Positions 6,541 to 52,110 of a DNA stretch of 64,000 nt are shown here, one piece after another (position 1 is the stretch's first letter; each line of letters starts with the position of its first letter). The notes below the pieces were generated by a model, which was given only the letters and a program-made list of their open reading frames with translations, was not told where the DNA came from and ran no database searches. Origin of the DNA: Closterium sp. NIES-65 (lineage: Eukaryota; Streptophyta; Zygnematophyceae; Desmidiales; Closteriaceae). The position numbers were made by a program, and so were the translations under genes. The DNA lies in NCBI GenBank assembly GCA_948144175.1, contig CANXME010000418.1, positions 1,301,001-1,365,000 of the forward strand, in the 5' to 3' direction.

Positions 6541-8055
6541 TCAGGAAGTGAGCAAGTGAGGTAAGGTAGGTACAAGACCTAACAGAGTACAAAAGCGCTG
6601 ATGGTCACAAGGCGCAAGTGCCTTGGTGAAGATATCAGTAGTGTTGGCCTCAGAGGCCACGTAAGCAAGGCGCAGCTGACCACGCTGCTGAAGCTCACGA
6701 GCAAGGAAGTAGCGAAGAGCGATGTGCTTCGTTTTGTGCTCCAGTCTATGCTCCCGAAACAAGGCCAGCATAGCCTTGTTGTCTACATACAGATTTGGAG
6801 GAGAACGAGGCGGCTCTCCTAGGTCAGTCAGCAGGTAGGTGAGCCAGCGTAGCTCCTGTGCAGCCATGGCCCCTGCGTAGATCTCAGCCTCACAACTTGA
6901 GCCGAGAACAGAAGACGAGCGGGTAGACCGCCACGAAACAGAGCCAGAACCAAGGCTGAAGGTGTAACCCTGTGACGACCGCTGCGTAGCCTGGTCGTCA
7001 GCCCAAGAAGCGTCTGCGTGACCAGTGAGGACCACTGGACTCCACCCTCCAAGCACAAGCCCCATGCGCGACGTACTGCACAAGTAGCGCAACACCCTCT
7101 TTGCTGCAGCCATGTGCTCTGGCCTGTGTCTCCCAGGAGCAACATAGCGTGCCAGAATGCTAAGAGGGTATGCAAGGTCAGGCCGAGTGCAGGTCATCAT
7201 GTATATGAGGCAGCCAACAAGCTCTGGGTACGGGCCACTCGACTCTACGGACTCATCCGAAGGCAGAGCTGAGAGCGAGTGGCGAGTAGGCAGAGGAGTG
7301 GCCTGAGGCGAGGAGTACGTGAAGCCGAAGCGCTGAAGGACCTGCTGCACCATGTGTGACTGAGTCAGGGTAATGGTGCGCTGTGCTCTGTCCCGGGTGA
7401 TCTGCAAGCCAAGGTAGCTGCGCGGTTCACCCAGGTCTGTGCACGTGTGTCTTTTCTGCAGCTCGGACTTCACGTGGACGAGTCCAGCAGTGTCAGCTGT
7501 GGCGAAGACCAAGTCGTCGACGTACACGAGGATGTAGAACGGCGGCAAAAAAGTGTCGGTGCGCAGAAACAGCGACGGGTTGGCAGTAGAAGAAGCAAAC
7601 CCAAGAGCCGCAAGTGTAGTCCTCAGTGTGTCATGCCACTCACGAGGTGCCTGGCGGAGACTGTAGACTGGCCGCCGGAGGCTCCACTGGGTACTAGGAG
7701 GAAAAGACCCAGTAAAGCCAGGTGGACGGCGCAGCCAGATCACCTCGTGCAGGCTGCCCTGCAAGAAAGCAGTGCTGAAGTCAAGAGAGTGAAGCTCGTA
7801 GTCACGGTGAGCGGCTATGTGCAGCAGTACCCAAAGAGTGGTCATCTTCGGGGTGGGAGAGAAGGTCTGAAAGTAGTCAACTCCCTGCCGCTGACTGAAG
7901 CCACGAGCCACGTAGCGCGCCTTGAAGACAGGCGGAGAACCCGGCGGCCGCTTCACCCTGAAAATCCACATGCCACTGACGATGTTCGCCCCAGGAGGGG
8001 GAACCTCGTCGACGTAGGTGCCTGTGGACTTCCAGGAAGCCATCTCTACATCCAT
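6541..8055 (-). pseudogene. RT-RNase H part of element C
   Basis: A 504-codon open stretch holding the copia RVT_2 reverse transcriptase and RNase H. Visible landmarks are FRVKRPPGSPPVFKARYVAR, DFSTAFLQG, LVYVDDLVFA (catalytic YVDD), TRPDLAYP, the RNase H segment ADASWADDQATQRSSQGY, and the terminal TKHIALRYFLARE. It is the best-preserved part of C; the element as a whole is broken. Confidence 0.9.
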
Positions 8056-8067
8056 GGCTGCCTGCCA

Positions 8068-26100: not shown

Positions 26101-29100
26101 AGGAGAGGAACTGGCCCAGCAGCAGCAGGAGCAGCAGGAGCAGGAGCAGCAGCAGTGGACACTAGTTCTTACATTGAGCAGAAGCGCAGATATGAAGAGG
26201 CCAGCTGCCACGTCCTTGGTGGAGCGCACAGGGCAGCAGGAGAGGAACTGGCCCAGCAGCAGCGAGACGGGCGTCATGACTGGATGTCGGAAGTCAGAGG
26301 AGGGGAATATGAGCGCCCACAGACGGAGCAGGAGGAGTGTGCGCGCCGTGGGCCATGCTGGCTCTGAGAGGAGAGGAACAAAAGGGGGGACGGGGTGGGG
26401 AGGGGAGGGAATGGGCAGGGAAGGGCATTACAGGGCGTCATGACGGGGTGGTGGAAGTCGGAGGGGGGAAGATGAGCGCCCAGAGACAAAGGAGCAGCAG
26501 CGTGTGTGTCGTGGGCCATGCTGGCTCTGAGATACGGGAGAGGAATACAGGGGGTGCGGAACACCTGCTAGGGGATAAAGGGAAACCACGTGATTGAAGA
26601 AGTGTTTTGAGACGCCTCAAAACACTTCTTCAATCTTTTGAGACGTCTCAAACAAGCCGTGCTGGCTCTGAGATACGGGAGAGGAATACAGCGGGTTCGG
26701 AACACTTGCGAGGGGATAACGGGGAACCGAACCAAGGTACTGCTTAGCAGCAGCGACATGTGCTGTACCTACTGTACAGTTCCGTACCACACCGTACCGC
26801 ACTGTATCCCATCGTACCTCCGGCTTTGAGGCGCGCCACGAGGCGTTTCTGCATGCGGGCGAGCCGCTCGCGGGTGCAAACGGCAGCGAAGAGAGAGAAG
26901 GACGCGGAGAGCTCCACAAGCGGCTGCACACGGGCCCCCAACCCATTCAGTCCTATACCGTACCGCACCGTACCGCACAGCACCACACCGTACCGCACCA
27001 TACCGCACCGTACCTCCGGCCTTGAGGCGCGCCACGAGGCGTTTCTGCATGCGGGCAAGCCGCTCGCGGGCGCAGACGGCAGCAAAGAGAGGGAAGGACG
27101 CGGAGAGCTCCACGAGAGGCTGCACCAACGCATTGATGTGCGCCGCTGCCACTGACGGCGCCCTCTTCTGCAACTCACTCGTCGCCTCTTCCTCCTCCTC
27201 CACCTCTTTATCTTCCTGTTTCCCCTCCTCCACCTTCCTCCCCCCTTGCGGCTTCACCTGCTGCCTGCTCCCTTGCTGTTTCTGCTGCTGCTCGTGCTGT
27301 TGCTTCTGCTTCTTCCCTGGCTGATCCTCCTCCTCCACCCGCTGAGACACACCACCGCCACCACTATCACTAGCCAGCGACGCGAAGTACTGCAGGAGAA
27401 CGTTATAGAAGATCTGCATCTTGCGCTTGTTGTCTGGGGACAGGTGCGCCGCGTTGCACGCGCGGATGCGTGCGATTGCCACGCCAACCTCTGCTGCTGC
27501 GCGCCCCTCTAGCAGCCGCTGCAGGTCCTTCAGCTGCTGTGGTGCTTCTATCACGTATGGCAGCTCGCGCCGTCGAAACACCCTCTCTATGCGCTCATTC
27601 TCCTCCTCTTCTTCCTCCTCGTCCTCCTCCTCATCTTCCTCCTCCTCATCCTCCTGCTCTTCTGTTGCTGCTGCTGCTGCATTTCTCTCTTCCATATTAT
27701 GCTTCTCCCCCTCCTTCTCTTCCTCCGCTTCCTCCTCCTCATCACTCTCCTCTCCCTCCTCTTTCTCCTCTCCTTCCTCCTCCTCGCTCTCCTCCTCATC
27801 CTGCTTCACATCCCTCACAGACCCTCGCTTCCCCTTCACCCTCTCCCCTCCAATCTCCTCATCACTCTGCTCCCAATCCACGTCAGCTAGATTCTCCGCC
27901 CCATCCTCCTCTTCATCCTCCTCCTCCTCTTCCCCCTCACTCCCACTCTCATCCTCGCTCTCCTCCCCCTTCTGACCCAATACATCATAAACCCACCCCT
28001 TCTTCTCCTCCTCGTCCTCCTCATCTTCCTCCAACACGAAATTCTCCCCTAAATCGTCCCCAGAGATCTCCCGTTTGACCTTCTTCCTCTGCCGCCTCTT
28101 CCTCCCCTTCCCGCCCTCCTCCTCACTAGACCCCTCCTCCCCTTCCTCTCCCTCCTCCTCGTCGTCACTGGGCTCCCCAATCATACGCCTCTTCCTTGCA
28201 GCCTGCACACAAGGCAGGGGGAAAGAGTGTAACCACCGCACACACAGCAATTGAGTCCACAAAAAAATCGTCGTCGTCACTGGGTTCCCCATCCATACAC
28301 CTCTCCCTTGCAGCCTGCGTATAAGGCGTGAGGAGAAGGGAGGGCGATTAACGCACACAAGGAAACAAAGAGGTTGAGCTTGGGAGTCGACACAAGAAAC
28401 TAGGCATGAGGATGGAAGGCAAACAGATCACACCAGGGAACAAACAAGTCGTAATTTTCAAGTAAACTCCAAAGGCCTTCAGAGAAAAAGCAATATCTGA
28501 CCACATAAGATAAAATCTCACCTCGAGCTTCACCAGTCGCCCCCTCTCCGCCTCCGCCGCCTCCTCCGCTGTCTTGGTGCGTTCCCCGGGCTTGGCGCGG
28601 ATGTCAAACACCATCTCCCCAGAAACAAGCCTGCTGTCTCTACCAATCTTACCTCGAGCTTCACCAGACGCGCCCTCTCCGCCTCTGCCGCTTCCTCTGC
28701 TGTCTTGGTGCGTTCCCCGGGCTTGGCGCGGATGTCAAACACCATCTCCCGCGCCAGCACGTCGTACTGCTTGTCGTCCATCTCCTGGTGACAATGGACA
28801 AGCGTGGGGGAAAGGGGGGAGGAGAATAAAAGGCGGGTGGAAGAGAGAGAGGCGAGACAACCACCATCTCCCGCGCCAACACGTCGTACTGCTTGTCGTC
28901 CATCTCCTGCCGATCATGGGAGAAGGTGGGTAGTGAGCGGGTGGCGGAGGGAGAGGGAGGAGGGAAAAAAGGGTGCAGGAGAGGTTGCAGGTTACACTGC
29001 CTGCCCTCCATCTCTTTCACCAATCAGTGAGGTTGCAGGAGAGAGTGAGTTTGGAGGACAAGGAAAGTGGGTTTGAACACGTGGAGGAGAGAGAGGGTGT

Positions 29101-30264
29101 AAGGACAAGGAAGGCGGGCAACGAGAGAACACGCGGGTGAGAGTGAGGGTGGGGGACAGAAGTGTGAATTTTACTTTGAGAATTCTCAAAGTAAAATTCA
29201 CAAAGGTGGGCAACGAGAGAACGCGTAGATGAGAGTGAGGGTGGGGGACAGAAGAAGCAGCAACAGCAGCAACAGGAACAGCAGCAGCAACGGTGATGGC
29301 ATTCGCACCTCTTCAGCCACGTCAGCAGCCAGCAGCGAGCCACCAGCAGCCGCCTTTGCAGCACCAGCAGCGCCACCAGCAGACGCAGCAGCAGACACTC
29401 CTCCCGCCGCCCCTCCCTCCCCGCCTCCCCCTCCCGCCTTCTCCTCCCCCTTGGCGCCCTTTCCGCCCTTTCCCCCTTTGGGCGCGCGCGTGAGCGCGAG
29501 CAGCGCGTCAGACTGTGCGATCTGGCGGAATTCCGCGTCGAGCTGCTCGCGCAGGTGCTCGTCCTCCTCCTTCTCCGCCTGCCGCTTCGCCTTGAACAGC
29601 TTGCTCTTCGCCATCACCTCCTCCATCACCTCCCTCTTCGTCTTCTGTCGCTCCTCGCCTCCCTCCTCCTGCCCTGTCGCCGCGTCAAGCTGGCCATGCG
29701 GAACAAAAAAAAGGGCAAACGAAGGAATTGGGTTGGGTTGAGTGAGATGAAACAGTGGATTTCTTCTTCTCCTTCTCCGCCTGCCGCTTCGCCTTGAACA
29801 GCTTGCTCTTCGCCATCACCTCCTCCATCACCTCCCGCTTCGTCTTCTGTCGCTCCTCGCCTCCCTCCTCCTCTGCCTCTACGTCAAGCTGAGAATGGGG
29901 AAGGCACGAAGTTGAGCAATGGAACAGGACAAGCAGCCATGGCGGGACACACGATAGTCATTCACACCAAGTGAGTGAGTGAGTTAGTGAGTGAGTGAGT
30001 GAGTGAGTGAGAAAGGGAGAGAGTGAGAGTGAGAGAGGGGGGGGGGGGGGCGGGGGCGAGGGGGGAAAGAACAGGTAGAGAGTGGGGAACAGGTACAAGG
30101 GAGAGGAAGAGGGCGAGTGGGCGAGAAGGCAAGTGGGCGAGTGGGGAAGAGGGCGAGAGGGCGAGTGAAGAGGCTCACATGTGCGTCTGTGGCCGACTTG
30201 GCCTTGGGAACGAAGCCACCACCAAAGTGATACTCGCTCACAATCTGATCGCCCACTGCACACA

Positions 30265-30329
<65 letters not shown>

Positions 30330-30453
30330 GCACGCACACACACGGGAGGGGAGGGGGGGATGGGCAGAGGCACACAAGGAAGACGGATGAAAAGCAGCCC
30401 TGAAAACGAAACCACCACCAGATTGTTACTCACACACGATCTGATCGCCCACT

Positions 30454-30516
<63 letters not shown>

Positions 30517-33440
30517 CACGCGCACAGGGGAGGGGAAGAGCTAGACAGAGGCACACGAGGAAGACGGATGAGAAACAGGAAGCAAAAAAAATGGAGGGGC
30601 CTTGTGATGTGACTCATCATCAATCTGGTTGCCGAGTGCACACAGGCGCGAGGGGAAGACCTCGTTGACACGCGGGAAAAAAAAATACTTCCGACACACT
30701 CGCTTCGCTTGTCATCATCGCGAGGAAAAAGGATAGCTCCGACGCACATGCTTGTCATCATCGCAGCAACAGGACACACGAGCGTTGATCGCGGCGTGCA
30801 CACAATCAAATGGTCTAGAGAGAGGGAACCAATCACAATCAACTGGTCTAGAGAGAGGAAACCAATCACAATCAACTGGTCTAGAGAGAGGAAACCAATC
30901 ACAATCAACTGACTCACACACTCTGATCATCAACATGTAACAATCCAATCACCTACGCACGTGCTCTATCGTCGTCATCCTCGTCCTCGCTGAAGCCCGA
31001 CACGCCCGAGTCGTCAAAGTCGTCAATCTCCCGCCCACGCGCGTGCTTGTCATCCTCGTCGCCACCACACATGTAAGAGTTAATCACAATCAACTGGTCT
31101 AGAGGAAAAAGAGTCGTGACTGGCACACTGCAATCACCAACTCACGTGCTCCATCATCGTCTTTTGAGAATTCTCAAAAGTGCTCCATCATCATCATCAT
31201 CCTCATCCTCCCCAAAGCCAGACACGTCCGAGTCGTCAATGTCGCGCCCGCCGTGCGTCAGAGAAGAGGCAACCTGACTCTTATCACCAGCCCACACACC
31301 CCAATCACCAACTCACGTGTTCCATCGTCGTCATCCTCATCCTCCCCAAAGCCAGACACGTCCGAGTCGTCAAAGTCGTCAATGTCGCGCCCGCCATGCG
31401 TCAGACGCAAGTCGCCGTCCTCACTCGCCGCCGCCCGCCTGCTGCTGCGCCTCCCCGCGCCTCCTCCGCCTCCGTCGTCGCCCTCCCCGTCGTCGTCGTC
31501 GCTCTCGTCGTCGTCCCCGAGGGAGAACCGGTTCTTGCGACTCAGCTGGGCCTGGAGAGGAGGGAAACGGAAAGGAGAAACGGATGGGAAACGGAAAGGA
31601 GAAACGGATGGGAAACAGATAACAAAACACTGACAACAGCAGATTCGCCTGTCGCAGTCGTCCCCGAGGGAAAACCGGTTCTTGCAACCCAGCTGGGCCA
31701 GCGGCCTGGGAAAACCAGAGAAGGAGAAACACATGGGAAGAGCGGGATTTAGAGAGCGTCCCAAAGCATCGGCAGTGGCAAAGTCCCATGCCGTTGTGGC
31801 GGAACGCAAAGTAGCGCAAGGACATGTCACAATCATGAATAGCGTACCATGTCATGCAATGCCATAACCTACCGTACCGTACCATGCCATGCCATGCCAC
31901 GATGTACCATGCGTTCCTTCTAGAACCGCACGATTGCCTTCTCGCCCTCGGAAATGGACTCGTCGCCCTCGGGAGGAGCAAAGAGCACAAGGTAGCGCAA
32001 TGGCATGCCATACTGTACCACGCCGTGCCATACCGTATCATGCCATGCCATGTCACGACGTACCATGCGCTCCTTCTGGAATCGTACGATGGCCTTCTCG
32101 CCCTCGGGAATGGACTCGTCGCCCTCGCCGAACCTCCGATCCAGAAACAGGTTCGCCTTGCCGCGCTGCTGAAACTCCTGCAGCAGCGTCGCCTTCCTCT
32201 GATGGCGGTTAGGGCGAATGCAAGCGGGGATGTAAATTCAAGATGGACAAGAAGTGAGCGGAAACAGAAGAGACAACCGATACCCAAACAGACGCGCCTT
32301 GCCGCGCATCTGAAACTCTTGCAGCAGCGTCGCCTTCCTCTGCTGGTGGTTGGAGTGGACATGCCAATGAGGATGCAGATGAGTACGACGGATAAGTGTA
32401 GAAAGAGAGAGAAAAAAAGGATAGATTCGCCTCTCCCCGCGCTCCCGAAACACCAGCAGGTGCGTCGCTTTCCTCTAATCATGGCTGGGCTGGGGTAAGG
32501 GTATGTACAAGAGGATGGGGAAGAGGATGGGGAAGACACCGTAAGATGAGGTGGGATACTGCCAAACGGCGAGAGGTCAGTGCGGCGCGGAATGAAAGCC
32601 GTCAGTGCAGTGCGAAATGAAAGCCATCAGCGCAGCGCGGAACGGAAACGGCTCGCGGAACGGAAGTCGTCAGTGCAGCGCGGAAGAGATAGCCGTCGAG
32701 AATTGAACGGGAGACGCGAGAGCTCGATTAATTTTTGGAGAATCTCAAGAACCAACGTATCTGAAACGGAAAGCCATCAAGAATTGCAGGGAAGAAGATC
32801 AAGGGAAGGGAGGGAGGGTGCGAAGCGACGGGAAGACGGAAAGGAAGTGTCACGGAGAGGGGAGGAGGTCTAAACCAGAAGCTGCGACAGCAAGAGCGGA
32901 GCGGCCTCACTGAGCTACGGAGCTACGGAGCTGGTGCTATGTATACAGGCGTTGCGGCGCTCTAAGAATCGCATCCAAACACCGGATTCTCCGTTTCGTT
33001 TAGGAAACTATTCGGGAAGAAACGGGAAATGAGGCACGAACGTGGCGAAGGAGAAATCAACATCTCGGCCGAGCTAAGTCTGCAGCAAAGGATCATCAAA
33101 GAAGAGCTAGCAACGACCGTTCTTGAGGCTTGCTCTTACACTCCCCAACGCAAACCTTCTCAACCGCACAGCTCCATTTTCGACGACTCAAACAGTAGCT
33201 ACGTTCCCTAGGACTAACCTTTTCCACAGCCGCGCTCCTGGCCTTGCCGATGGACTTGGCGCGAACATCGCCCTTGACCTTGCGTCCCAGAATGTCGAAC
33301 TTGCGACGGTTCCACAGCTGCTCGAACACGTTCACCAGCCGGCCCGACACGCCTCCGGGCTTGCCGCTCCTAGACAACCCGGCAGCGGCGCCGCTGGGAT
33401 CCGAAGACCCCACGCCGGAGCTCCTCCTGTTCTTAGCCAT
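23132..33440 (-). CDS. NOP14: Nucleolar protein 14 (NOP14), 12 exons
   Basis: NOP14 acts in the nucleolus in 18S rRNA processing and 40S subunit assembly. Exons (minus): 33,440-33,219; 32,198-32,064; 31,551-31,317; 30,255-30,179; 29,689-29,309; 28,784-28,653; 28,202-27,014; 26,363-26,173; 25,727-25,626; 25,291-24,966; 24,676-24,377; 23,414-23,132. All GT-AG phases agree, giving 1,190 residues. Family landmarks: NRRKFDILGRK near the N-terminus, FLDRRFGEGDE, HFGGGF, YDVLAREMVFDIRAKPGERT, a long acidic stretch, ELPYVIEAP, LWALIFPSSDFRHPV, KDVAAGLFISALLLN, SQSRRFVPEALNFL, LRLRVKRAVPAKQFNPKFE and KGAARELRKDNQFL-like C-terminus. It is longer than the human protein (857 residues), mainly from the acidic and low-complexity parts. 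Introns are full of partial exon copies. Confidence 0.93.
23797..24335 (-). repeat. Four echoes of the end of NOP14 exon 11
   Basis: Copies at about 23,797-23,890, 23,930-23,975, 24,108-24,170 and 24,280-24,335 repeat the exon segment coding KRAVPAKQFNPKFESEY, with varying decay. The copy used in the gene model is at 24,395-24,470 because only there is an open path to a donor (GTAAGG) in the right phase. Confidence 0.85.
24840..24966 (-). repeat. Tandem repeat of NOP14 exon 10 splice donor
   Basis: About five copies of a ~20-bp unit, minus-strand form TTCAGGTAGGTTCAGGTGGT. Each copy recreates the exon end TTCAG and donor GTAGGT, so several donors lie in a row. Confidence 0.8.
25431..25490 (-). 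repeat. Echo of NOP14 exon 9 end
   Basis: Decayed copy of the exon 9 end and its donor (compare 25,622-25,680). Confidence 0.8.
25511..25605. repeat. GTGAT pentanucleotide microsatellite
   Basis: About 18 tandem copies of TGATG/GTGAT between exon 9 and its echo in NOP14 intron 9. Confidence 0.95.
25889..26135 (-). repeat. Two echoes of NOP14 exon 8, second half
   Basis: Copies at 25,889-25,990 and 26,033-26,135 repeat the ~100 bases coding LGQFLSCCPVRSTKDVAAGL and onward, with the donor. They are very close to the exon copy at 26,173-26,275. Confidence 0.9.
26437..26735 (-). repeat. Echoes of NOP14 exon 8 start and of its acceptor
   Basis: 26,437-26,535 repeats the first half of exon 8 with acceptor. 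A block around the acceptor is doubled again at about 26,512-26,590 and 26,655-26,730, with two palindromes exactly between the two copies. Confidence 0.85.
26593..26652. other. Paired palindromes in NOP14 intron 7
   Basis: 26,593-26,634 is a hairpin with perfect 19-base arms (ATTGAAGAAGTGTTTTGAG) and the 4-base centre ACGC. 26,637-26,652 is the perfect palindrome TTTGAGACGTCTCAAA. Both lie between two near-identical ~75-bp direct repeats. Confidence 0.9.
26814..26940 (-). repeat. Echo of NOP14 exon 7 end
   Basis: About 125 bases matching 27,010-27,135, with donor GGAG|gtacg. A CCGTACCGCA-type short tandem repeat separates the two copies. Confidence 0.88.
28270..28320 (-). repeat. Echo of NOP14 exon 7 start
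   Basis: Copy of the exon 7 acceptor and first codons (compare 28,160-28,210). Confidence 0.75.
28523..28617 (-). repeat. Echo of NOP14 exon 6, second half
   Basis: About 95 bases nearly identical to 28,653-28,750, with a donor at the same place. A further copy of the first half is at 28,862-28,912. Confidence 0.9.
29163..29202. other. 40-bp perfect palindrome between direct repeats
   Basis: The arm TGTGAATTTTACTTTGAGAA is followed at once by its exact reverse complement, with centre GAATTC. It is flanked on both sides by a ~50-bp direct repeat (29,112-29,162 and 29,203-29,254). It lies in NOP14 intron 5. Confidence 0.95.
29766..29891 (-). repeat. Echo of NOP14 exon 5 start, open and with its own acceptor
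   Basis: About 125 bases matching the start of exon 5 (29,565-29,689), with an AG acceptor before CTTGAC. It stays open across KTKREVMEEVMAKSKLFKAK, so it could act as an alternative exon, but no donor of matching phase is clear. Confidence 0.85.
29967..30030. repeat. GTGA/GAGT microsatellite
   Basis: Tetranucleotide-like run followed by GAGAGT repeats and a G tract, in NOP14 intron 4. Confidence 0.9.
30262..30328. repeat. (CA)n microsatellite 1 in NOP14 intron 3
   Basis: About 30 CA dinucleotides abutting the acceptor of exon 4. Confidence 0.97.
30405..30514 (-). repeat. Echo of NOP14 exon 4 acceptor with its own (CA)n tract
   Basis: Copy of exon 4 start (30,405-30,456) with adjoining (CA)n (30,457-30,514), so exon edge and microsatellite were copied together. 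A third, more decayed copy is at 30,605-30,645. Confidence 0.88.
30958..31262 (-). repeat. Two echoes of NOP14 exon 3 end
   Basis: Copies at 30,958-31,045 and 31,181-31,262 repeat the exon 3 end (31,317-31,420), coding DIDDFDDSxVSGF and an Asp run. The palindrome CTTTTGAGAATTCTCAAAAG (31,161-31,180) abuts the second copy and splits the short direct repeat GTGCTCCATCATC. Confidence 0.9.
31640..31707 (-). repeat. Echo of NOP14 exon 3 start
   Basis: Copy of the segment coding AQLSRKNRFSLGDD (compare 31,500-31,551). Confidence 0.82.
31911..32480 (-). repeat. Three echoes of NOP14 exon 2 around the real exon
   Basis: Partial copies at 31,911-31,968 (exon 3' half), 32,284-32,345 and 32,425-32,480 (exon 5' half with acceptor) flank exon 2 at 32,064-32,198 on both sides. 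Confidence 0.85.
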
Positions 33441-35170
33441 TCCTGGACGGACCCGGACGGAACTGGACGGACGTAGACGGACCTGAACTAAGCCTCGAGA
33501 TGAGACGCTAGTTCTGACGCGACTGCGCTACTACCCTCGCGACTCTAAACTCAGGGCTGAGCCGACGCCCTAAAACGGCACTAGCTAAAGCCATAGTGAC
33601 ATCTCGGGGCGAGCTCTACGCAAGCCCCAGCGCAGGAGAGCGTTGGAAGGAAGCAGCAGCTGCACGTAACCTCAACACAAACATGAAAGCTTCTCAGTTT
33701 GGTTCAGAAATACCAATGAATCCGACTCTTTCTAGCTGGCTTTCCTCATGAGTCGTGACCATGGTGTTGTGGGTCCAATGAGCAGTGATGTGATAGACCA
33801 ACAGAAGAGTGGCTCCTCCATCCATAACTCTTCTCCCCTACTACTCACCTCGCCGTAACTCCGACAAACCTCGGGGTTTGTTCTCACTGGGATTGGTTGG
33901 GAGGGGGAAACGGCTGGTGGGGCTAGGGTTTCGCCACGGGCCTCCTCCACTTCTCTCATTCATCCCTCCTCTCCCCTCTCCCCTCTCCCCTCTCCCATCT
34001 CTCCGCTCCACTTGCGTTTGTCGGCTCCGCTCCGTTACCTACAGTTGAACTTCTTCTGTCTGTTTCATGACTTTCCCGTCCATTCAGCTGACACTCAGCC
34101 GGCTTCCGTCAGACTTCGCGGATCCATCCATCCAACCACACATACTGTAGGACTTTGTTTGTCGCCGCACTGAATTTGCAGTCTGCCCGGCCACGAAAGG
34201 TTTCGTCTCGGGACTGATCAGCGCCTGGCGAAAGAGACGCAAACTAAGGGCTGATGTTGTCAGTGCCCTCACGAGTCGCACGGTCACGCGCGAGACGACA
34301 GGTTATTGGTTGATCAAAAAGCGAGCTTATGATTGGATATCTCTTCATACCATGCGAACCATCCCATGGTTGGTGCAGAAAAGCTCGCAAGGGGATGCCA
34401 GAAGCAGTCAAGCATCTGTGCTGCAATTGTAATAAACAAACACTTCAAAAATGGTTTTACTTCACCACATACCAAGCAGAAACCTCACCCTCAAAATAGG
34501 CCTTGAAGACAAGAACCAATGAAAGAGCTTTCGGCTCAGAAATGGTGACAGGGAGCTATAAAAGCATAACAAAACCAGCTCAAACATTTGGGTGATGCAA
34601 TCTCTTGCAGTTCTTTTGGTGTACATTTGTACATGCATTTGTTGTTGGTCCTTGGTATGTTACAGTAGTAGGGAAAGTGGAAAGTGGTACGGTAAGAGGG
34701 GGATAAAGGGGGGTGAGGGGGAGTGGAATGGGGGCTTTAAGGGCATCGTTGCTCATTCTTGTTGTAGATTGCTCATCGTCAAACAGCCCAAGAAACTAGG
34801 AGGCAACACACAAGCATACATTCTGTTCAATGAGGCGCAAGTTTCACAAGCTAAAGGAGGTTGGCAGCACTAACTACACACATACATGGTAACCGCCCCT
34901 AACAAACGAGAACAAAGAGCTCCCTACGCTAAACAGCATTGCACCAAGCTACAGTTGCAGAACCTACCGACACCAAGTCCAGCATCAAGCCTCCACTGGT
35001 GGCCTAATCGATACCATTATTGTGTAATGGCACAAAGCAAGGCAATCCAGCCACCTCGCCTCAAGCACACACCCTTGGCTCAACCTCTTCCCCCTGTTGC
35101 TCCGTTTGCTCCTCCTGTTGCTCTCCCACTTGCTCCTCGCTCCAACTCATCAAATCAGACTCTCCCAAGC
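33441..35170. other. Intergenic region upstream of NOP14
   Basis: Likely holds the NOP14 promoter near 33,450-33,700. Contains a CCTCTCCC run (33,964-34,000). No gene is supported. Confidence 0.5.
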
Positions 35171-35640
35171 TCAACCGCACAGCACCAATCAGTTCTTCTC
35201 CTGCCCCTCACAAAACCTTCAACACTCATGCTGTCCCCTCTTGTACCCCTCGCCCTCTCCCCCCCCCCCCCCCCCCCACCACTTCAGCTCTCTTGGGACT
35301 CCACTTCACTCAGCTCACCTCAACCGCACAACACCGCTCTGTCCTTCTCCTGCTCCTCTCCTTAGTGCCCCTCGCCCTCCCCCTCCATCTCATGGGACTC
35401 CAGGTTACTCAGTTCAGGGGGGATGAGTGACACTGCCACCCTAAACCCTGTGCACCCTGCTCTCAGCTCAGCTCAACTCATCTCATCTCATCTCATCTGA
35501 GCTCTGCGCCACAGCACCACCATTCGCTGCACATGCTCCTTCTGCTCCTTCTGCCTCCCCCTCCAGCTCGTGTGATTCCAGCTCGCTCAGCTCAGCGGGG
35601 ATGAATTTTCCAAACGACACCCCCGCCCCTGCACCTCTCA
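35170..35640 (-). repeat. Tandem echoes of the 3' end of the giant acidic gene
   Basis: Segments at about 35,170-35,215, 35,318-35,432 and 35,527-35,640 repeat the gene's last ~130 bases (35,648-35,780), coding SFGKFIPAELSELESHELEG, in decreasing quality. Each ends near CTCAACCGCACAGCACC or a close form. Confidence 0.8.
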
Positions 35641-35647
35641 GCCCAGC

Positions 35648-42991: not shown

Positions 42992-44054
42992 GCTATGTCC
43001 TTACTCTGCTGAGAATTTCTACTATATCCTTCAGAATGTGAAATATGGTAAGTTTCCTTAAAACTAGACAGAGTACATTCGTGGAACCCTTGTTCCACGA
43101 GACAAGTGTTCCAAGTCTACACGACCGCGACTAGAGGAGAAGCTCCTGAACGTCACACTAAACCACGATGTGGAAGCTACGACACCACAGACTCAGAAGT
43201 CACCATAAAGGAAGTGGGATAACAAGGTGACAGAATAAATGAAATGCGCTGTGGTGCGGGCATGTGGGAGTGGTCAAGCATACCGATGGTGGGGATCAGC
43301 CTGGTTTGAGCCAGATTTGGGTACGGAGAGGAGATAGAATGGAACATCTCACATCGCAACAGGGGCAACAGGGTTGGGGAGGGCTGGATTTGGGAAGGGA
43401 AGGGACGGAAGGGAGGGGCGGAGGGGCAACAACGAGGGAGATGAAATCATGGATGGAGTGGAGTGGATTGGTTGGCTGCTTGCTTGCTTGTCGAAGCGCG
43501 GTCGCCCTCGACATTGAATCCGCGGTGCGTCAACGACGCCTGCTGTAACCACGAGCGCTTCGCATTACGAGTCGCTTGCCACGTCGAAGGGGCTCAGATG
43601 TGAAGGGACGTGGCTCCGAACTCTCACATGTGATTGTACAGAAAAAACCATAACGAGTTATTCTTCCCGACATGATTATGGGGCTAGTAGCATAGCAGAC
43701 ACTCGCAAAAACACCTCACCAATGGCTGTTCTGGTACACTTGCCTCTGTTATAAAAAAAATATCGTTTCCTTGGAAGTATACTTGGATATGTGTAATCTA
43801 AAGTATTGTATCGCGAATATTTATCGTTCCTTGTAATTCAGTCGCATTATACAGTTGAACATCGAGGAATCACATCATGAGACAAATTCACTGAGCTAAG
43901 AACTACATGAAGACTTGGTATCTTTCACTGGAAAACAGATAATTATGCAGATGTGTGACTGAGAAGTTCACACGCTCTTTGATGCGATCACTTAGTTCCA
44001 CGGTCCTCCTACGAGGAAATACTAATTTTAGCTACGTCGACCTCTAATCTTCCC
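42992..44054. other. Intergenic region between the two coiled-coil genes
   Basis: About 1.06 kb, AT-rich at 43,620-44,040. It probably holds the promoter of the giant acidic gene and the 3' end of its small neighbour. No gene is supported. Confidence 0.5.
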
Positions 44055-44732
44055 TCACAGAATCAGTTTCGCCTCGCCCTCCTTATATTCCGGCTTATCC
44101 CACAGCAGATGCTGCTCCTGATCCGCTCCTCCCATCAGCCAGCTCGCGAAACCACCACTACTCTTCTTGCTCTCAGCTTTCTTCCCCTCGCTTCCACCGC
44201 TATTCACCGCACTCTCGTACGTCTCAATTCGCCCGCTCCTTCCGCCGCCATTCGCGCTGTAGAATGTAACTCCGGAAGCGGACGGCTGAACCATATGCTG
44301 CAGCTTCGGAACCGAGGAAGAGGGAGCGACGGAGGAGTAACTCCACATGTTACCACCTGGAGGGTTACCAGGGTTACCAGCAGCCGGAGCGGTTGGCTTA
44401 GCTCCCGTGGTCTCCGTTTTCTCGGGATTTTCGCGCCAGTACATGGGTTCGGATGTGGAGGTCAACTCGCGGTAGAGCCGAAGCCCGCGGAAATCCAGCT
44501 TCGCTTCGTGGCGCGCCTCTTCCTCGCGCTGCCGCTGGATGCGCTCGAGCTCCTGCGATAGGTACGCATCGTCCTCTTGCACCTCGCGAAACCGCTGGCG
44601 AATGGAGTTGAGGTCGTTCGACATCGCAGTGACCTTCGCGCGACGTCGCTCGTGATCGTGAGGGTCGCTGACGGTTTCCAAGTACCGCGCGACGGCGCGC
44701 GGCCCAGCGCGAGAAGGGCGTGGGTGATACAT
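44055..44732 (-). CDS. Small paralogue with the same N-terminal coiled coil
   Basis: 225-residue single-exon frame from ATG at 44,732, beginning MYHPRPSRAGPR. Residues ~28-75 align without gaps to residues ~27-74 of the giant acidic protein: both have ERRRA, DL, then RQR-(L/F)-R, then a Gln/Glu/Arg-rich helix. The rest is Ser/Gly/Pro-rich, with a short end WLMGG...LLWDKPEYKEGE, and no acidic domain. No known domain is recognised. The same orientation and 1.06-kb spacing suggest a tandem duplication followed by growth of the acidic part in the neighbour, or its loss here. Confidence 0.65.
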   Translation of the reverse strand: MYHPRPSRAGPRAVARYLETVSDPHDHERRRAKVTAMSNDLNSIRQRFREVQEDDAYLSQELERIQRQREEEARHEAKLDFRGLRLYRELTSTSEPMYWRENPEKTETTGAKPTAPAAGNPGNPPGGNMWSYSSVAPSSSVPKLQHMVQPSASGVTFYSANGGGRSGRIETYESAVNSGGSEGKKAESKKSSGGFASWLMGGADQEQHLLWDKPEYKEGEAKLIL

Positions 44733-45722
44733 ATCCCTCTAGCGGATGTGAGTTCCTACGAATGGTTCTGTATAACGCCCAACACTAGGCAAAACATACA
44801 CGATGTGGGCTGTGTGCTTCCTGACAAGATAACTGTTTTTCAGAAAAGGCGGGTTTAACGAACTGGACACAATCTGGAGTTGCTGAAAAGCGGTCGGTCT
44901 GATGAGACAAAACCTGGGTCCAACACAAAAGGGGCTGTTGTGCTGCTCTAGTCATATGAGCGCTTCTAGAGACTAGGTACTCTTGCTGGCCTACCAAAAT
45001 CGTCGCAGGGAGAGTGCCGAGAGCGGATAGGATAGAGAAACTACGGCTACGTCGCATGGATCTTCCGCATTTCCGTAGGCAAACGAGGAATAGAACCACT
45101 TTATATCGCATCATATCTGTTAGGAGACCTTCCAATCGTCCGTAACCTTCGTATGCTCAATCGCCAAGGTCAAAGGCCGTCCGAGGAGGAGCCATCCTCA
45201 TTATCACCTGGAATGTGAGAGCCATACAGTTCGTGTGCCTGTAACGACTGCGACGCGAGTTCAGCCCAGGGCAGATTGAACTCGGTCATGCGATCCGTCC
45301 CTGCTGGCAGCGAAATTCCACCGCCATTGTGGCGTAACACCCACATAAAGTCGCTGACTTCTCGAAATTGCTTCAACCCTACACCCACATAGCATTCCTT
45401 ACATCATCAGCGTAGATAAATGTAATTCCAACTCTACATGCTTCTATCCTACACGTTTCATGCTACAATAAAAATCAGACAGAACAATGAACTTATATTC
45501 TAAACTGCATTCTGAGCCAGATCTATGCATTACAAATTGGTCGGAAGCGTTGTGCCGCAGAAATGCATACAGGCCATATCTATACGAAGTATTGGCCTCT
45601 TCATGAAAAAAAACAAAAAACGGTGTGAAGTCCTGACGCGCTAGGAAATAATAGAATTCAGTCTGAGCAGGAATCACAACATTGAGCAACAATTACTTAA
45701 AATGTAAAACACAACAAGGTAG
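44733..45722. other. Region between small paralogue and tRNA
   Basis: Open frames at 45,170-45,388 and 45,444-45,692 (minus) look more protein-like in composition than the surroundings, but no domain, start or splice model can be supported. Confidence 0.4.
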
Positions 45723-45796
45723 TGGCCCATACAGGTTTCGAACCTGTGACCTTCGCGTTATTAGCACGACGCTCTAACCAACTGAGCTAATAGGCC
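45723..45796 (-). tRNA. tRNA-Ile (anticodon AAU)
   Basis: Read on the minus strand, 74 bases including the discriminator A fold into a full cloverleaf. The acceptor is GGCCTAT/ATGGGCC with one T-G pair, the D stem GCTC/GAGC, the anticodon stem TCGTG/CGCGA with loop CTAATAA (anticodon AAT), and the T arm ACAGG-TTCGAAA-CCTGT. There is no intron and no encoded CCA, as in nuclear tRNA genes. A TTTTA stretch about 15 bases downstream could serve as the Pol III terminator. Ile-AAU is the main eukaryotic nuclear isoleucine tRNA. Confidence 0.97.
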
Positions 45797-45884
45797 GATA
45801 TCCATGATAAAAACTTAGTATATTGTAAAGTTAAATTAATTGAATTCTAGCACGTTTTCTGGTTGGTGGGATCACCCACATTGC

Positions 45885-46119
45885 ATGGCACCAGCGCGAG
45901 TGCTCCCTCTTCCCACAGCCATAGTCGTCCGCGATGCGCGCTCCGACGCCGTACTCGCGCAGTTCCTAGGCGGCAAGCCGGCCGGCGAGTTATGCGACGC
46001 GCTGGAGCGACTCACGGGGTCGCCGGGCTGTCTCGTGCTCGGGGACAAGGCGTCCCAAGGCGCACCGCTCGTACTGACTGAATCGGATGTGATACAATCG
46101 GGGACGTACCACTGGCGAG
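45885..46119 (+). CDS. Possible first exon of an unrecognised gene
   Basis: An ATG at 45,885 opens 78 codons (MAPARVLPLPTAIVVRDARS... ending near SGTYHWR) with balanced composition, ending at a good donor CGAG|gtgcgt. The exon ends in phase 1. No convincing second exon was found. Open frames exist on both strands further on (46,232-47,014 minus; 46,661-47,599 plus), but neither has a known domain. It could also be a gene remnant. Confidence 0.4.
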
Positions 46120-47872
46120 GTGCGTGTCGCTGGCATACCGAATTTCGCTGGTGTTTCTGAGCTGCTGCTAGCATGTAGTCTAGTCTTACCGTCGTTCGAC
46201 CCGCTTCAACAGTCGGACCGTCGACCGTAGCCTAAAGATACGGTGTCGTTATGTAGCGTCGATAAGATACAGTTAAGAATACGGTGACTCGGCGTTGTTC
46301 TGACTGGTGGCTGACGTGGCCGACACCATACGCGTGTTCATGCTGAGCTGTCGAACATACAAAATCGGTTAGCTTGCGCAGACGAAACGTACCAGACGAG
46401 ACTAATATCTCCGTGACCCCTCTCCCTTGCTCTAATCCGATGCATCGCCTTCTTCCACCTTCCCCTCTCCACACCCGCACCCCTCTCCGTCCCACCCTCC
46501 TTCCCGACTTCCCCCCTCCCCCGCCTTCCCCCTCCCCCGCCTTCCCTCCTTCCTGACTTCCCCCCTCCCCCGCCTTCCCCTTCCCCCGCCTTCCCCCTCC
46601 CCCGCCTTCCCTCTTCCCGACTTCCCCCCTCCCCCGCCTTCCCCACCCCCCGCATGCGCAGTGGCTATAACGAGATCTTCCTCTCACCCCACCACCCAGC
46701 CGGCACACCCCCCGTACAATCACACCCGCCACCGCCACCATGATTGGTCCGCGCAACTCGCGGCGTCCATACTCGCTATACTCATCCTCGGTAGCGGTAT
46801 CCAGCTGCTCATCATGCTCGCAGCCCTCCCCTTCTGCAGTTACCGCTGGTCCTGCGCCTTTTCCCACTACCGCTCGTTCATCTCCTTTATAGACGGACCC
46901 TTTAAGGTGTTCGCGTTCGTCGCGGCCGTCCAAGCGGCCGGCAGAAACCCTGGTCGGTGGCTGTGGTTCGTGAAACACCTTCGTTTCAATCACATCCGTT
47001 TGAATCCGTTTCAAGGATGGTTTTCGCGGCTACGGATTCTTGGAAAGTCTTGGTCGGGAGTAGCGGGAGAACAGGCGTATCGAGGAGAGATAGGGTTAGG
47101 AGGGGAAACAGGGCTTGGAGGGAAGGGAGGCAGAGAGGAGAGAAGGGAGGAGAGGAGGGATTCAGGAAGGAAAGGGAGAGGAGGACGGGGAGGTAAGGGA
47201 GCGAGGAAAAGCAGCTCAGGTCAGGGAAAGCAAGGAGAGGGAGGCTTGGAATCCGGTCTTGGTGACAACAGGCTCGTGCAAGGCTTGGTTACACGTTCGG
47301 CGCCAAGCCTAACTTCAGAAAGGGTTGTGGGAAAAGCTGGATCGGCGCGTTGTCCTGGGCCTGGGGAATTGGTCAACTCTCATAACTTGTTTCCCGTGGC
47401 ATCCTGTGACACTGGTTCACCCCGCTCGGTGCCCTTCTCCTCTGCTGCTGCTGAGCTCAGTGCTTACTCGCCGTCTTTCCCCACTAGGGGAAGACTGCCT
47501 GGAAAGGTTTCTTCCTCCTCCTTGTTGGCGTATGTTTCTATGAGAAGATCGATTTCTGATGGCGGCAGTGGTGATGTGAGCAAGCGAAAAGAAGACTGAT
47601 CCAGACGGACTGCCTTTTTCTTTGCTTTCGGCGCTTGTCACATGTTTCAAAATCTTCATGCACAATTGATTCTCTCAGAGGAAATGTTAACTCTGTACTA
47701 ATAAAACTTATACAGTATGATATTCTGGAACAAATCTACAGTGTTTCGGTTGATGTGCTGTTGACTGCCAGTCACCCAACTATTGACCCTGTTGACCCTT
47801 CTGACCTTGCCGACTCCCCAGCAGCACCCGTAGCAGCAATGGCAAGTGTAACGTGTCTCTGCTAGTATCTTC
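46120..47872. other. Region with unresolved coding content
   Basis: 46,490-46,650 is a CCCCCTCCCCCGCCTTCC-type repeat. The remainder has open frames on both strands with no recognised domain. Confidence 0.4.
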
Positions 47873-47920
47873 TCTCTCTGCTGTCCACTCGTTTAATGCC
47901 ATCATCCCTCAACGCAGCAG
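47873..47920 (-). repeat. Echo of the RS-rich gene's 3' end
   Basis: Repeats the segment at 47,990-48,030 coding GGFKRVDSKE, beyond the stop codon. Confidence 0.75.
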
Positions 47921-47984
47921 AAGCAGCAGCAGCAGCAGAAGCAGCAGCACTAGCAGCGTCAGCAGCAGCAGCAGCCCCAACATG

Positions 47985-50900
47985 CTATCTTCTCTCTTTG
48001 CTGTCCACTCGTTTGAAGCCACCATTCCTAGAAGGACCAGCAGCAGCAGCAGCAATAACCACAGCCGCAGCAGCAGCTTCAGCATCTGCAACAGCCATGG
48101 CTTGGGTGGCTGCTGCCCTCCACTCTGCCTGACGCTGTGCCTCCGATGAAGGCAAACCCAGCTGTGAGAGACAGAGGGGGTCCAGGAAAGGATGCAGGAA
48201 GAGAGTGATGGAGTGGAATGAAGTGGAACAGAGTAAAACGGTGTGAAACGGATGCCATTGGTGTCCCTTGGGTGGCTGCTGCCCTCCACTCCGCCTGTCG
48301 CTGTTCCTCTGACGAGGGCAGACCCAGCTGTGAGGCGGAAGGGGGGAGGAGAAGGGAAGTGAAGAGTGCTAAGGAGTGGAAAGCGGTGAAAAGGAGTGGG
48401 ACGGATGCCATGGCAGGAGTGGGACGGATGGAAAGGAATGGAGAGGATTGCAATGGAGTGGAAAGGAATGGAGAGGATTGCAATGGAGTGGAAAGGGATG
48501 GAGAGGATTGCAATGGAGTGGAAAGGGATGGAGAGGATTGCAATGGAGTGGAAAGGAATGGAGAGGATTGCAATGGAGTGGAAAGGAATGGAGAGGATTG
48601 CAATGGAGTGGAAAGGGATGGAGAGGATTGCAACGGAGTGGAAAGGGATGACGTCTCAAAAGACGTCTCAAAAAATGGTCCAAAAGTCGTCACAAAGGTG
48701 CCTCATAAGGGGAAGGTACTAATGGGAGAGAACAAACCTCACAGCAGCTCGAAATGCGTCCATAGCTTCCTTCGCCTCCATTAGTACCTTCCCCTTATGG
48801 GGAAGGAAGCTGGATTCCTTTTTACTAATGCGTCCACAGCTTCCTTCGCCTCCAGCTTCGAGCTTTGAGGGATGGATGGTTTAAAAGATGTCCCAGGAGA
48901 GGTTTTAAACGACATCTCGAAAGGAAAACTTATTCCGCGGTAACAAGGAATCTCACCGCAGCTCAAAAGGCGTCCATCCTTGCAGCTTCCTTTGCCTCCG
49001 GCTTTGGGTTTTGACATGTCTCAAAAAACTTCCCAGAAGTTGCCTCAAAAGGGGAAGGTACTAAAAGGAGCTACAGCGACTCACTGCAGCACGGAAGGCA
49101 TCCATCCTCGCAGCTTCCTTCGCCTCCAGCTTTGAATTTTGAGACATCTCAAGAGGAGTAGGCACTAAGGGGAGCGACAACGAATCTCACCGCAGCGCGG
49201 AAGGCGTCCATCCTTGCAGCTTCCTTCGCCTCCAGCTTTGCTAACTTGTTGCCCGCATGCACTGTGCGCTCCAGTTTCTGATGTATTGAGAGAGGTTGAG
49301 AAGGGGTTGACAGGGGTTAAATGGAGTGAGCGAGTCGCCATGAAGACAGGAACACAGTGTGCGTCCAGCTTTGCCAGCTCGTTGCCCGCATGCACTGTGC
49401 GCTCCAGTTTCTGATGTATTGAGAGAGGTTGAGAAGGGGTCGAGAGAGGATGAGTAGAGTGTGTCGCCGAGGAGACAAAAGCATTGCAAACCAGAAGAGA
49501 GCAGGGGCCAGGAGAAAGCAGAGCAACGGTCGGAAATATCTGTCTTAAGTGGTGGTTTTGGAGGTTATCGCAGCAAAGCAAAGAGAACATAACCATGTCA
49601 AAAGTGGGAGTAAATGACGGGCAGTGCAGCTGGGCTTTAAATTTCTAAAAAAAGTCGACTCGAACATGACAAGAAAGATACGCATGCCAATTGAAGTAGT
49701 GACTGAGGGCAGTGTGACTGTGGAGGAAGCAAAGCACTCACCTTCTTTTCCATACGAAGCTTCTTTTGCTCCCTGCAAGGGGAAACAACCGGCAGGCAGG
49801 GTTATAAGAGTGAATGTGGTGTGAGAAAGAATGTGGGGAAAGAACGTGAGGTGAAAAGTAGCATGAAGATCAAGGGACGAATGGAATCGTCGAAGGAGGG
49901 GAGTGGAGAAGACTAAGGGACGAGGGAAAGGAGGAGGAAAAGGAGGGAACGAAGGAGGGGACGGAGGAAGGGGACAAGGGGGAGAGAGATAAATGGTCCA
50001 TTCAAACATGTTCTACCTGCTATGAATAATTCTTAAGCTTCATAAACAATGCAAGAACGGTCCTTCAATCCACCACCCACCTCCAGTCAACAGAGCCAAA
50101 GAAGCGTTGCATGTTGGCCTGCTCGTCCTGCGCCTTCCTCCACTCGCCTGACCGCAATTGCTCCTGAAATCAGGGTATGTGGAGAGGGATTATAGACGGA
50201 GTTTGGAGAGAAAACTATGCTTCCAACCGTCATATAGGTGGGAATATATCGCATATTCTTTCATTGTTCTGCCGGTTCGCCAGAGAGAGATGGTACTGTT
50301 GCACGCTGAGTTCTGAGGTGCCTCAAAAGTTGGCTGCGAGGGAAAAGTCGCGTTTTGAGTCAGTACCTTTGCATGCTGAGCCCGTTGCCGAAGCACCTCC
50401 TTCTGCTCCACCTGCTCCATCATGCGTGCCTGCAGAGTCACGACACACACACACAAGAGTAGATGGTGCAGGAAAAGGAGAGAAAAGACTTCTGAGGCGA
50501 GAAAAGCCTTCTGAGGCGACTCAAAGACCAGCCCGTTGCCTAAGCACCTCCTTCTGCTCCACCTGCTCCATCATGCGTGCCTGCAGATACGAGGAGATAA
50601 TCAGAATAAAGGGAGAAAAATGTTAATAACGAGTAGAATATATAAAGAGAAGTTGGAAAACAAGAAATCACGACTTTTGAGATGTCTCAGAAGGAAACGT
50701 ATGCGAAGATTGAAAGGAATAGAGGGAGAGGAAGATGGAAAGGGAGAAAGGCAGGAAAAAATGGGCACAAAGGGGGGGGGGGGGGTGGGGGGGGGGGGGG
50801 GGGGAGGGTTACTCGAGGCAAGGATTAAAGAGAGAGAGGCGGAAGAGCAGGATAGGGGAGTAGACGGAAAAAAACGACATGGAGATCATCAAAGGATTAT

Positions 50901-52110
50901 CGTGGATCGATTTGAAAGCAAGGTGGGCGAGCAGGAGTGGGGGAGAGGAGAAGGGGATGAAGTGGAAGGAGGAACCGACATGCATGTCTTTTGAGTCGAC
51001 TCAAAAGTCAGCTGAGAAGGGGATGAAGTGGAATGTCTTTTGAGTCGACTCAAAAGTCAGCTGAGAAGGGGATGAAGTGGAATGTCTTTTGAGTCGACTC
51101 AAAAGTCAGCTGAGAAGGGGATGAAGTGGAAGGAGGAACCGACATGCATGTCGTTTGAGTCGACTCAAAAGTCAGCTGAGAAGGGGATGAAGTGGAAGGA
51201 GGAACCGACATGCATGTCTTTTGAGTCGACTCAAAAGTCAGCTGAGAAGGGGATGAAGTGGAAGGAGGAACCGACATGCATGTCTTTTGAGTCGACTCAA
51301 AAGTCAGCTGAGAAGGGGATGAAGTGGAAGGAGGAACCGACATGCATGTCTTTTGAGTCGACTCAAAAGTCAGCTGAGAAGGGGATGAAGTGGAAGGAGG
51401 AACCGACATGCATGTCTTTTGAGTCGACTCAAAAGTCAGCTGAGAAGGGGATGAAGTGGAAGGAGGAACCGACATGCATGTCTTTTGAGTCGACTCAAAA
51501 GTCAGCTGAGAAGGGGATGAAGTGGAAGGAGGAACCGACATGCATGTCTTTTGAGTCGACTCAAAAGTCAGCTGAGAAGGGGATGAAGTGGAATGTCTTT
51601 TGAGTCGACTCAAAAATCAGCTGAGAAGGGGATAAAGTGGAAGGAGGAACCGACATGCATGTCTTTTGAGTCGACTCAAAAGTCAGCTGAGAAGGGGATG
51701 AAGTGGAAGGAGGAACCGACATGCATGTCACCAAAGGATTTCTTGAGGTCATTGCGCCCGTCATCATCCGCCCCTGCTGCTCCATTCGCTCCATTCGCCA
51801 GCATCTCATTCCCAGGCGGCCCCGCATTGTTAGGCAGCTTCCCTCCCAGCCCTCCTTGACTCCCATCGTTCCCCGTTTCCTTCCTGCTGCCTTGGCGCCT
51901 CTTCCTCTTTTTGTGCCTGTCTTTCTTTCTGTCCTTTCCCCTCTTCCTCCGCTCATCCTTCCTCCCTTTCTTTGGCTTTTTCCTCCTGCCTTTCCGGTTC
52001 CTCTTTTTGGTCTGCTTCCTCCGCTTCTTCCCGCTATCCTCGCTATCACTCTCTCCACTACTATCACTATTGCTTACAGTGTCACTGCTCTCGCTATTAT
52101 CATCACTACC

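Follow-up and report, generated by a model that had tools for sequence, protein, structure and literature searches.

Short TTTTGAG-NNNN-CTCAAAA palindromes in Closterium sp. NIES-65 as very probable hyper-truncated insertions of Penelope-like retroelements

A stretch of 64,000 nucleotides from the alga Closterium sp. NIES-65 (contig CANXME010000418.1; C418:1301001-1365000, hereafter the window) carries recurrent palindromes of the form TTTTGAG-NNNN-CTCAAAA beside direct repeats, which raises the question of what these sequences are and how they came to be inserted. A preliminary description of the window had compared them to very small fold-back elements that leave long duplications of the target, with ends that matched no described element, or else to products of a hairpin-mediated repair. 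The analysis presented here, in which the whole genome was scanned (874,075,685 bases in 2400 contigs), indicates that they are very probably hyper-truncated insertions of Penelope-like retroelements (PLEs). Each micro-insertion would consist of an 18-bp hairpin, usually with a few to some tens of adjoining bases, lying within a target duplication of tens of bases. Contigs and loci are cited below by our C and L numbers.

Abundance, symmetry and flanking repeats of the palindromes

The exact pattern occurs 13 times in the window, at 26605, at 31162 and at eleven positions between 50989 and 51664; with up to two mismatches allowed, 25 cores were found, against none in each of five base shuffles. 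Genome-wide, TTTTGAGN{2,6}CTCAAAA gave 30,545 matches and the reversed control pattern 12, and the TCGA core TTTTGAGTCGACTCAAAA alone gave 13,080 against 0 in its control. The recurrence noticed earlier is real, and its frequency lies far above chance. In a sample of 264 kb, made up of the window and 20 pieces of 10 kb (18 of which were picked for containing hits), TTTGAG was present in 65 of the 72 perfect palindromes of at least 16 bp, while the seven palindromes without it compare with five in one shuffle. The reversed control, the base shuffles and this palindrome census rule out chance or base composition as the origin.

The arms are kept and the centres vary, as had been described. TCGA (33), ACGT (13), GCGC (10) and AATT (3) are the most common centres in the 264-kb sample, followed by five others, and the centre is self-complementary in 59 of the 64 sampled hairpin cores. 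A viral source was considered and rejected: among the 120 matches to the same arms listed for IMG/VR contigs only two centres were self-complementary, and these matches therefore look like background. Six 16- to 18-mers had no match in the searched literature text, and no paper on palindromes of Closterium was among those listed by the literature search.

Direct repeats beside the palindromes were scored at isolated sites, defined as cores with at most one mismatch and no second core within 150 bp. An adjacent repeat scoring at least 27 was present at 28 of 38 such sites, whereas the best of 40 cross-locus pairs scored 18. With ungapped, adjacent scoring, a repeat was found at 22 of 41 isolated sites and in none of 300 cross-locus draws (same-locus draws were skipped in both control sets). 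Fifty repeats pooled from two samples had a median length of 36 bp and a range of 15-76 bp, and 17 of them were perfect. Tiny insertions with long duplications, as first proposed, are thus found far above chance. The proposal that the repeats are exon-edge sequence was not confirmed: a crude 5'-splice-site motif was present in 10 of the 50 repeats and in 6.8 +/- 2.5 of random windows, which is not a significant enrichment.

Comparison with uninterrupted copies at two sites, where paralogues lack both the insert and the second repeat, demonstrates that the palindromes were inserted with duplication of the target. At L130, a 24-bp palindrome (GACTTTTGAGTCGACTCAAAAGTC) lies in one exon copy between two identical 59-bp repeats, and three neighbouring tandem exon copies carry the 59-bp stretch once and no palindrome. 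At L143:9828, the paralogue L148 has no core; the two flanks map to L148 at 120-235 and 172-273 and overlap there by 64 bases, so that the repeat is single in L148. The latter paralogue came from a search for diverged copies of twelve sites, which otherwise returned mostly near-identical copies with the same insertion. Target-site duplications and empty sites, as expected of truncated PLE insertions, are therefore present, though not at every site.

Tandem duplication with random filler was also considered as the sole cause of these structures. It was rejected in that role, because 36 of 124 duplication fillers hold a core (with up to three mismatches) where about 1.7 would be expected; the other 88 are without a core, and the process is kept as context. 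Many short tandem duplications, with unrelated filler or none and some of them over exon-like sequence, were seen in the 264-kb sample.

The hairpin at the start of Penelope-like elements

The source of the palindromes was approached through their arms. The pattern CACGTG-N12-TTTTGAGACGTCTCA gave 500 and 540 matches in the genome, one figure per strand. The 12-mer between CACGTG and the hairpin is variable and usually has AG in its middle; that AG is always central was dismissed on account of exceptions. Three of 40 CACGTG-N12 loci (the ACGT set, selected for containing CACGTG and therefore biased toward that end) shared, by eye, a long upstream sequence. A 141-nt query from one of these three recovered direct-repeat pairs 3.6 and 5.8 kb apart, the offset being 3625 in C73 and 5.77 kb in C2000.

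The C73 copy comprises 4231 bp between perfect 43-bp target duplications, with pseudo-long terminal repeats (pLTRs) and a reverse transcriptase (RT). In sense order it presents the duplication, a short mirrored arm, the hairpin, a pLTR with CTGATGA..GAAAC, open reading frame (ORF) 1, the RT, the hairpin again, a partial second pLTR that stops just inside ORF1, and the duplication. A search for longer, protein-coding elements with the same terminus had been proposed in the preliminary description, and this copy is such an element.

With a piece of the RT as query, 150 places in the genome were scored (217 candidates). Pfam assigned RVT_1 to two RT ORFs, at 1.7e-05 (25.1 bits, below the cut-off of 29.6) and at 0.0015, and a five-row RT profile compared with solved structures ranked telomerase reverse transcriptase first (E 0.0028). 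A telomerase-like RT, as expected of a PLE, is present, and so is the layout of these elements, with tandem or partial-tandem pLTR-ORF-pLTR units in which the pLTR extends into the ORF start. The RT also contains the motifs KPADK, SRWLD and YIDD, which we take to be typical of PLEs. No GIY-YIG endonuclease was matched by Pfam in nine ORF pieces (E <=1) or in the two RT ORFs (E <=0.1). Canonical Penelope membership is not claimed; judged from its sequence, the element is a candidate for the endonuclease-deficient PLE group. Endonuclease-deficient PLEs are described as telomere-associated; the algal hairpins are dispersed. RT matches with a regular spacing of about 6 to 9 kb were seen on small contigs (C614, C714, C744, C1803, C927, C969, C2347, C308, C919 and C671). 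These are tandem arrays of PLE-like RT with 47-49% identity to the query, and four sampled arrays (L220, L222, L223 and L224) are without the hairpin.

Twenty RT places, some of them closely related, were sampled for the hairpin. Ten carry an exact core 232-259 nt downstream of the RT core, with ACGT, GCGC, AATT or TCGA as centre and with arms that differ between PLEs, and two more carry the hairpin with one or two mismatches. The PLE at L217 has GTCACCTCGTTACTATGGC, which is the arm of TCGA micro-insertions, and that at L231 has TCAACCTCAAACAA, the arm of the insertion at L129:2101. Palindromes with core and arms thus match the starts of PLE pLTRs, and core-only inserts match by the 18-bp hairpin alone. 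The same hairpin begins the pLTR of PLEs with different centres; the palindromes correspond to the pLTR-5' hairpin of PLEs, and ends of this kind have been described before, in that palindromes in the same position are published for rotifer Penelope families (PMC3846280).

A hammerhead-like string, CTGANGA...GAAA, was found at 11 of the 12 hairpin-bearing places (all but L215) and at one of the eight places without a hairpin. Across 11 hairpin rows, five of them distinct, three of the nine pairs were changed on both sides and none was broken. These rows were nine of the 12 hairpin places together with C2000 and C73; L218 and L230, with hairpins identical to other rows, were omitted, as was L229, which has a broken pair and whose omission makes the 100% pairing of the set flattering.

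Insertions of very different length share this end. The size ladder runs from 18 bp (window 31162) through 24 bp (L130), 36 bp (L170 and L199) and 92 bp (L237, within a perfect 34-bp duplication) to the 4231 bp of C73, and the second arm is either missing or a short mirror of the first. A query from the other end of the element had no match under 58 query positions among the 40 of 133 candidates scored; the hairpin query, by contrast, gave 13 plus-strand-type matches of 40-44 nt (40 candidates scored). The perfect inverted symmetry and the high copy number would be explained if TTTTGAG formed the ends of a DNA transposon, either of fold-back type or a miniature inverted-repeat transposable element (MITE), or if the palindrome had no link to retroelements and were selected as a protein-binding site. 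Such an origin is very improbable, since the end shared with the RT-encoding copy largely refutes it. A MITE or fold-back element should have both terminal repeats, a short fixed duplication and a transposase relative. Here 12 of 26 inserts are one-armed, the duplications are long and vary from 15 to 76 bp, and the longer relative encodes an RT; the size ladder is equally at odds with a DNA transposon.

Short insertions that duplicate their target or have an inverted structure are known from 5'-truncated or twin-primed long interspersed nuclear elements (LINEs), from MITEs, from fold-back elements and from the Rickettsia palindromic elements. Introners (see PMC9860276) are similar in this respect. 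All of them have other ends and other enzymes, whereas the algal inserts go down to 18 bp and keep the PLE hairpin. Among described PLEs, Penelope of Adineta vaga also has palindromes, of 18 and 38 bp, at the pLTR 5' end and a pLTR that reaches into the ORF start, but it possesses a GIY-YIG domain and, in the cases consulted, target duplications of about 8-10 bp, and the portion of that report available to us describes no hairpin-only insertions on a scale of tens of thousands (PMC3846280). The PAc element of Anolis carolinensis resembles the algal element in its tandem pLTR-ORF-pLTR structure, in a hammerhead motif in the pLTR and in a telomerase-like RT; it differs in having an endonuclease and in starting reverse transcription internally, on sense RNA, within a stem loop close to where the ORF begins, and the available part of its description does not mention hairpin micro-insertions (PMC11167929). 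PLE-type RTs with no detected GIY-YIG domain, as here, are reported from rotifers, fungi, protists and plants (PMC3846280). Published work on Penelope already includes palindromic pLTR ends and self-priming (PMC3846280). Hairpin-only PLE insertions by the ten thousand with long duplications were not found among the papers listed by the literature searches, in which PLE work from subscription journals was thinly covered, so that their absence is unproven.

Insertion mechanism and competing explanations

As a whole, the hyper-truncation of PLEs by the insertion mechanism set out here seems to us the likely explanation. Host nicks or staggered breaks would be used as entry, and fill-in would lead to the long, variable duplications; as no endonuclease domain was detected, such lesions are the most likely source of these duplications. 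The RT would begin at the 3' end of a predicted antisense RNA, ...N12-TTTTGAG-N4-CTCAAAA-3', which is the simplest template, and would usually halt within tens of nucleotides. From its 3' end the hairpin may then snap back and act as primer for a brief copy of the neighbouring arm (up to about 19 nt), which would produce the longer palindromes, and slippage or unequal exchange would later make arrays at some sites. We lean slightly towards a start of reverse transcription at the hairpin end, and regard the antisense RNA as a serious contender for the template without quite committing to it. The hairpin-mediated repair suggested in the preliminary description survives in part: the long duplications may arise from the filling-in of host breaks, but what was inserted is retroelement sequence.

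Copies thin out away from the hairpin, and for this reason synthesis probably starts there. In comparison with the 13,080 TCGA cores, 613 have 6-nt arms on both sides and 204 have the 13-nt arm of one family, counts that mix families, include arrays and do not form a clean decay curve. The arms of TCGA copies are shortened forms of GCCATAGTAACGAGGTGAC, and a weaker score found a repeat at 11 of 20 TCGA loci with GCCATAGTAACGAGGTGAC-type arms. In the ACGT set, 16 of the 40 loci have a far arm that mirrors the near arm at no fewer than 13 of 18 positions, and stricter scoring detected an adjacent duplication in 26 of the 40. The left end of these 26 inserts lies within 3 nt of CACGTG in 15; at the far end they extend beyond CTCAAAA by 0-1 nt (12 inserts), 5 nt (two) or 10-18 nt (12).

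The position of the left ends could also point to a non-autonomous hairpin RNA, similar to a short interspersed nuclear element and about 38 nt long, extending from (AGC)CACGTG to CTCAAAA or being the TCGA-type counterpart of this sequence. It would be made from pLTRs or from loci of its own and inserted in trans by PLE enzymes, and the number of copies, which far exceeds that of the RT places scored, would be readily understood. We hold this to be quite unlikely, because many inserts are shorter (the longer arm is at most 7 nt in 14 of 22 inserts of a set not chosen by arm), longer pieces of 92 bp and 4231 bp occur, and the selection of the ACGT set for CACGTG favours precisely that end.

Another explanation dispenses with priming on the target: host end joining would capture PLE cDNA or hairpin fragments as filler when repairing staggered breaks, and the RT would do no more than supply these DNA pieces. 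It is unlikely, even if other fillers are often seen in short duplications, the ORFs searched revealed no endonuclease domain, and some inserts (L138:2018 and L134:5079, for example) join several partial hairpins. Nearly all captured inserts would need this one end, internal PLE pieces, for which no systematic search was made, would be expected too, and full-length copies carry equally long duplications.

Several observations weigh against the origin and mechanism that we favour. At the scores used, no repeat was found at 10 of 38 or, ungapped, at 19 of 41 isolated sites. A looser score, which detected a flanking repeat at 78% of 94 core sites and in 2% of 353 cross-locus pairs, was also reached at 23% of 600 random positions, and in 179 of the 235 local duplications listed the interval between the copies is free of both TTTGAG and CTCAAA. 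Eight of the 20 RT places are without the hairpin, namely L228 and seven with 47-49% identity to the query, four of which belong to contigs that carry RT in tandem arrays. In the C73 copy, one mismatch affects the 5' hairpin and one stop interrupts the RT, and no Rfam hammerhead hit was obtained on L210, L212 and L213 at E <=5. For rotifer Penelope, self-priming, perhaps on an antisense template, was proposed, antisense being suggested from inverted junctions, and the template strand of PLEs was left open (PMC3846280). The lizard PLE, on the other hand, starts internally on sense RNA in vitro, which speaks against an antisense template, and the later steps of PLE insertion are called not yet validated (PMC11167929).

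This lizard system, which cleaves and extends both strands, also bears on a further alternative, twin priming on sense PLE RNA (PMC11167929). Both nicked target strands would prime reverse transcription near the 5' end of the RNA, each would be extended as far as that end, and the resulting cDNAs would anneal via the self-complementary hairpin before fill-in, so that the arms represent two independent starts. Symmetric short arms do exist (at L130 and L153, for example), self-complementary centres fit the annealing of two ends, and the end of the C73 copy just inside ORF1 fits internal initiation on sense RNA. Twin priming is possible, though we think it doubtful, as the starts must be concentrated in the first 20 nt or so of the RNA, one arm must stay short even in the 92-bp and 4231-bp copies, and the comparable search from the opposite end of the element yielded nothing shorter than 58 query positions among the 40 of 133 candidates scored.

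If hyper-truncation as proposed here is correct, the insertions, which number tens of thousands and for the most part halt near one end, could record the first step of PLE insertion directly; many of them keep intact target duplications, and the paired changes within the hairpin make its role testable. A bolder and tentative proposal, which we consider less probable than not, is that the swarm of hairpins preserves, across the genome, the first nucleotides polymerized by PLE enzymes. Synthesis would start at the hairpin that ends the element, either by self-priming or with an antisense RNA as template, and in this alga the RT would largely serve to patch staggered host breaks with a hairpin. 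Were this true, template polarity and strand joining would be settled for PLEs, and a new source of short duplications would be recognized. Through its short duplications, some of them expanded to arrays, the swarm is also a large source of mutation in a lineage that is probably sister to land plants. Inserts of 18 bp could easily be overlooked by repeat annotation.

Sites in the window

Cores were found at the places named in the preliminary description, though several are degenerate copies with one or two mismatches, and some coordinates differ by a few bases because longer arms had been counted. A 68-bp insert with an ACGT-type PLE hairpin lies at 26588..26655 and presents the arm ACGTGATTGAAGAAGTG, a core at 26605 (centre ACGC), a mirrored arm and, at 26636, another core that has one mismatch; its 12-mer is one base away from the pLTR start of the C2000 copy. 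The left copy of its 73-bp target duplication is at 26515..26587 and the right copy at 26656-26728 (66/73 identical). A 40-bp perfect palindrome, TGTGAATTTTACTTTGAGAATTCTCAAAGTAAAATTCACA, occupies 29163..29202, with a core at 29174 (two mismatches), and is flanked by 52-bp repeats at 29111-29162 and 29203-29254 (47/52 identical). The core-only insert TTTTGAGAATTCTCAAAA, of 18 bp at 31162..31179, is directly flanked by 16-bp repeats at 31146-31161 and 31180-31195 (15/16 identical). At 18355..18408, a 54-bp insert with a degenerate GCGC-type core at 18387 has 16-bp perfect repeats on both sides and holds CTCAAAAGTCGTCTCTTATCCCGCAGTTTTT, similar by eye to the pLTR start at the PLE place L215.

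The tandem array at 50984..51729, with units of 49 and 66 bp, contains 12 cores with TCGA centre, 11 of them exact and one beginning GTTTGAG, and is likely a later expansion of one insertion with its target repeat. Another array, of 24-bp units TTTTGAGGCGCCTAAAAAATCACC, was seen at about 8160-8450 of L132, where the hairpin cores have one arm altered. The mismatch scan gave degenerate cores at 49009..49026 (TTTTGACATGTCTCAAAA) and at 50509..50526 (two mismatches), and the degenerate core TTTTGAGACATCTCAAGA at 49137..49154 has a 79-bp imperfect repeat on both sides. An adjacent repeat was looked for and not found at the degenerate cores at 50311..50328 and at 25499..25516, the latter unnamed in the preliminary description, and a convincing one was likewise sought in vain at 50675..50692.

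An 80-bp inverted-repeat stretch at about 8472-8551 of L136 (GTTCGGTTCGCCTCGAAC...), 96-99% identical to several other contigs, represents another short inverted-repeat family, and an array of 30-bp units at 48429-48650 of the window (97% matches) is unrelated to the hairpin. The rbcL sequence, which reads as streptophyte and for which the search of solved structures lists rubisco large chains, has twenty full matches on C75, C97, C162, C824, C1848, C2174 and others. Many of these matches form opposed pairs, and they represent either plastid contigs or plastid DNA copied into the nucleus. Pieces of Copia-type retrotransposons with RVT_2 lie in the window at 2086-3309 (+), 6541-8067 (-) and 55614-59887 (-), with rve also at 55614-58439 and Pol_BBD at 58067-59887. 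The window also contains a protein-kinase ORF at 16387-18249 (-) and a Nop14-like ORF at 26769-28427 (-).

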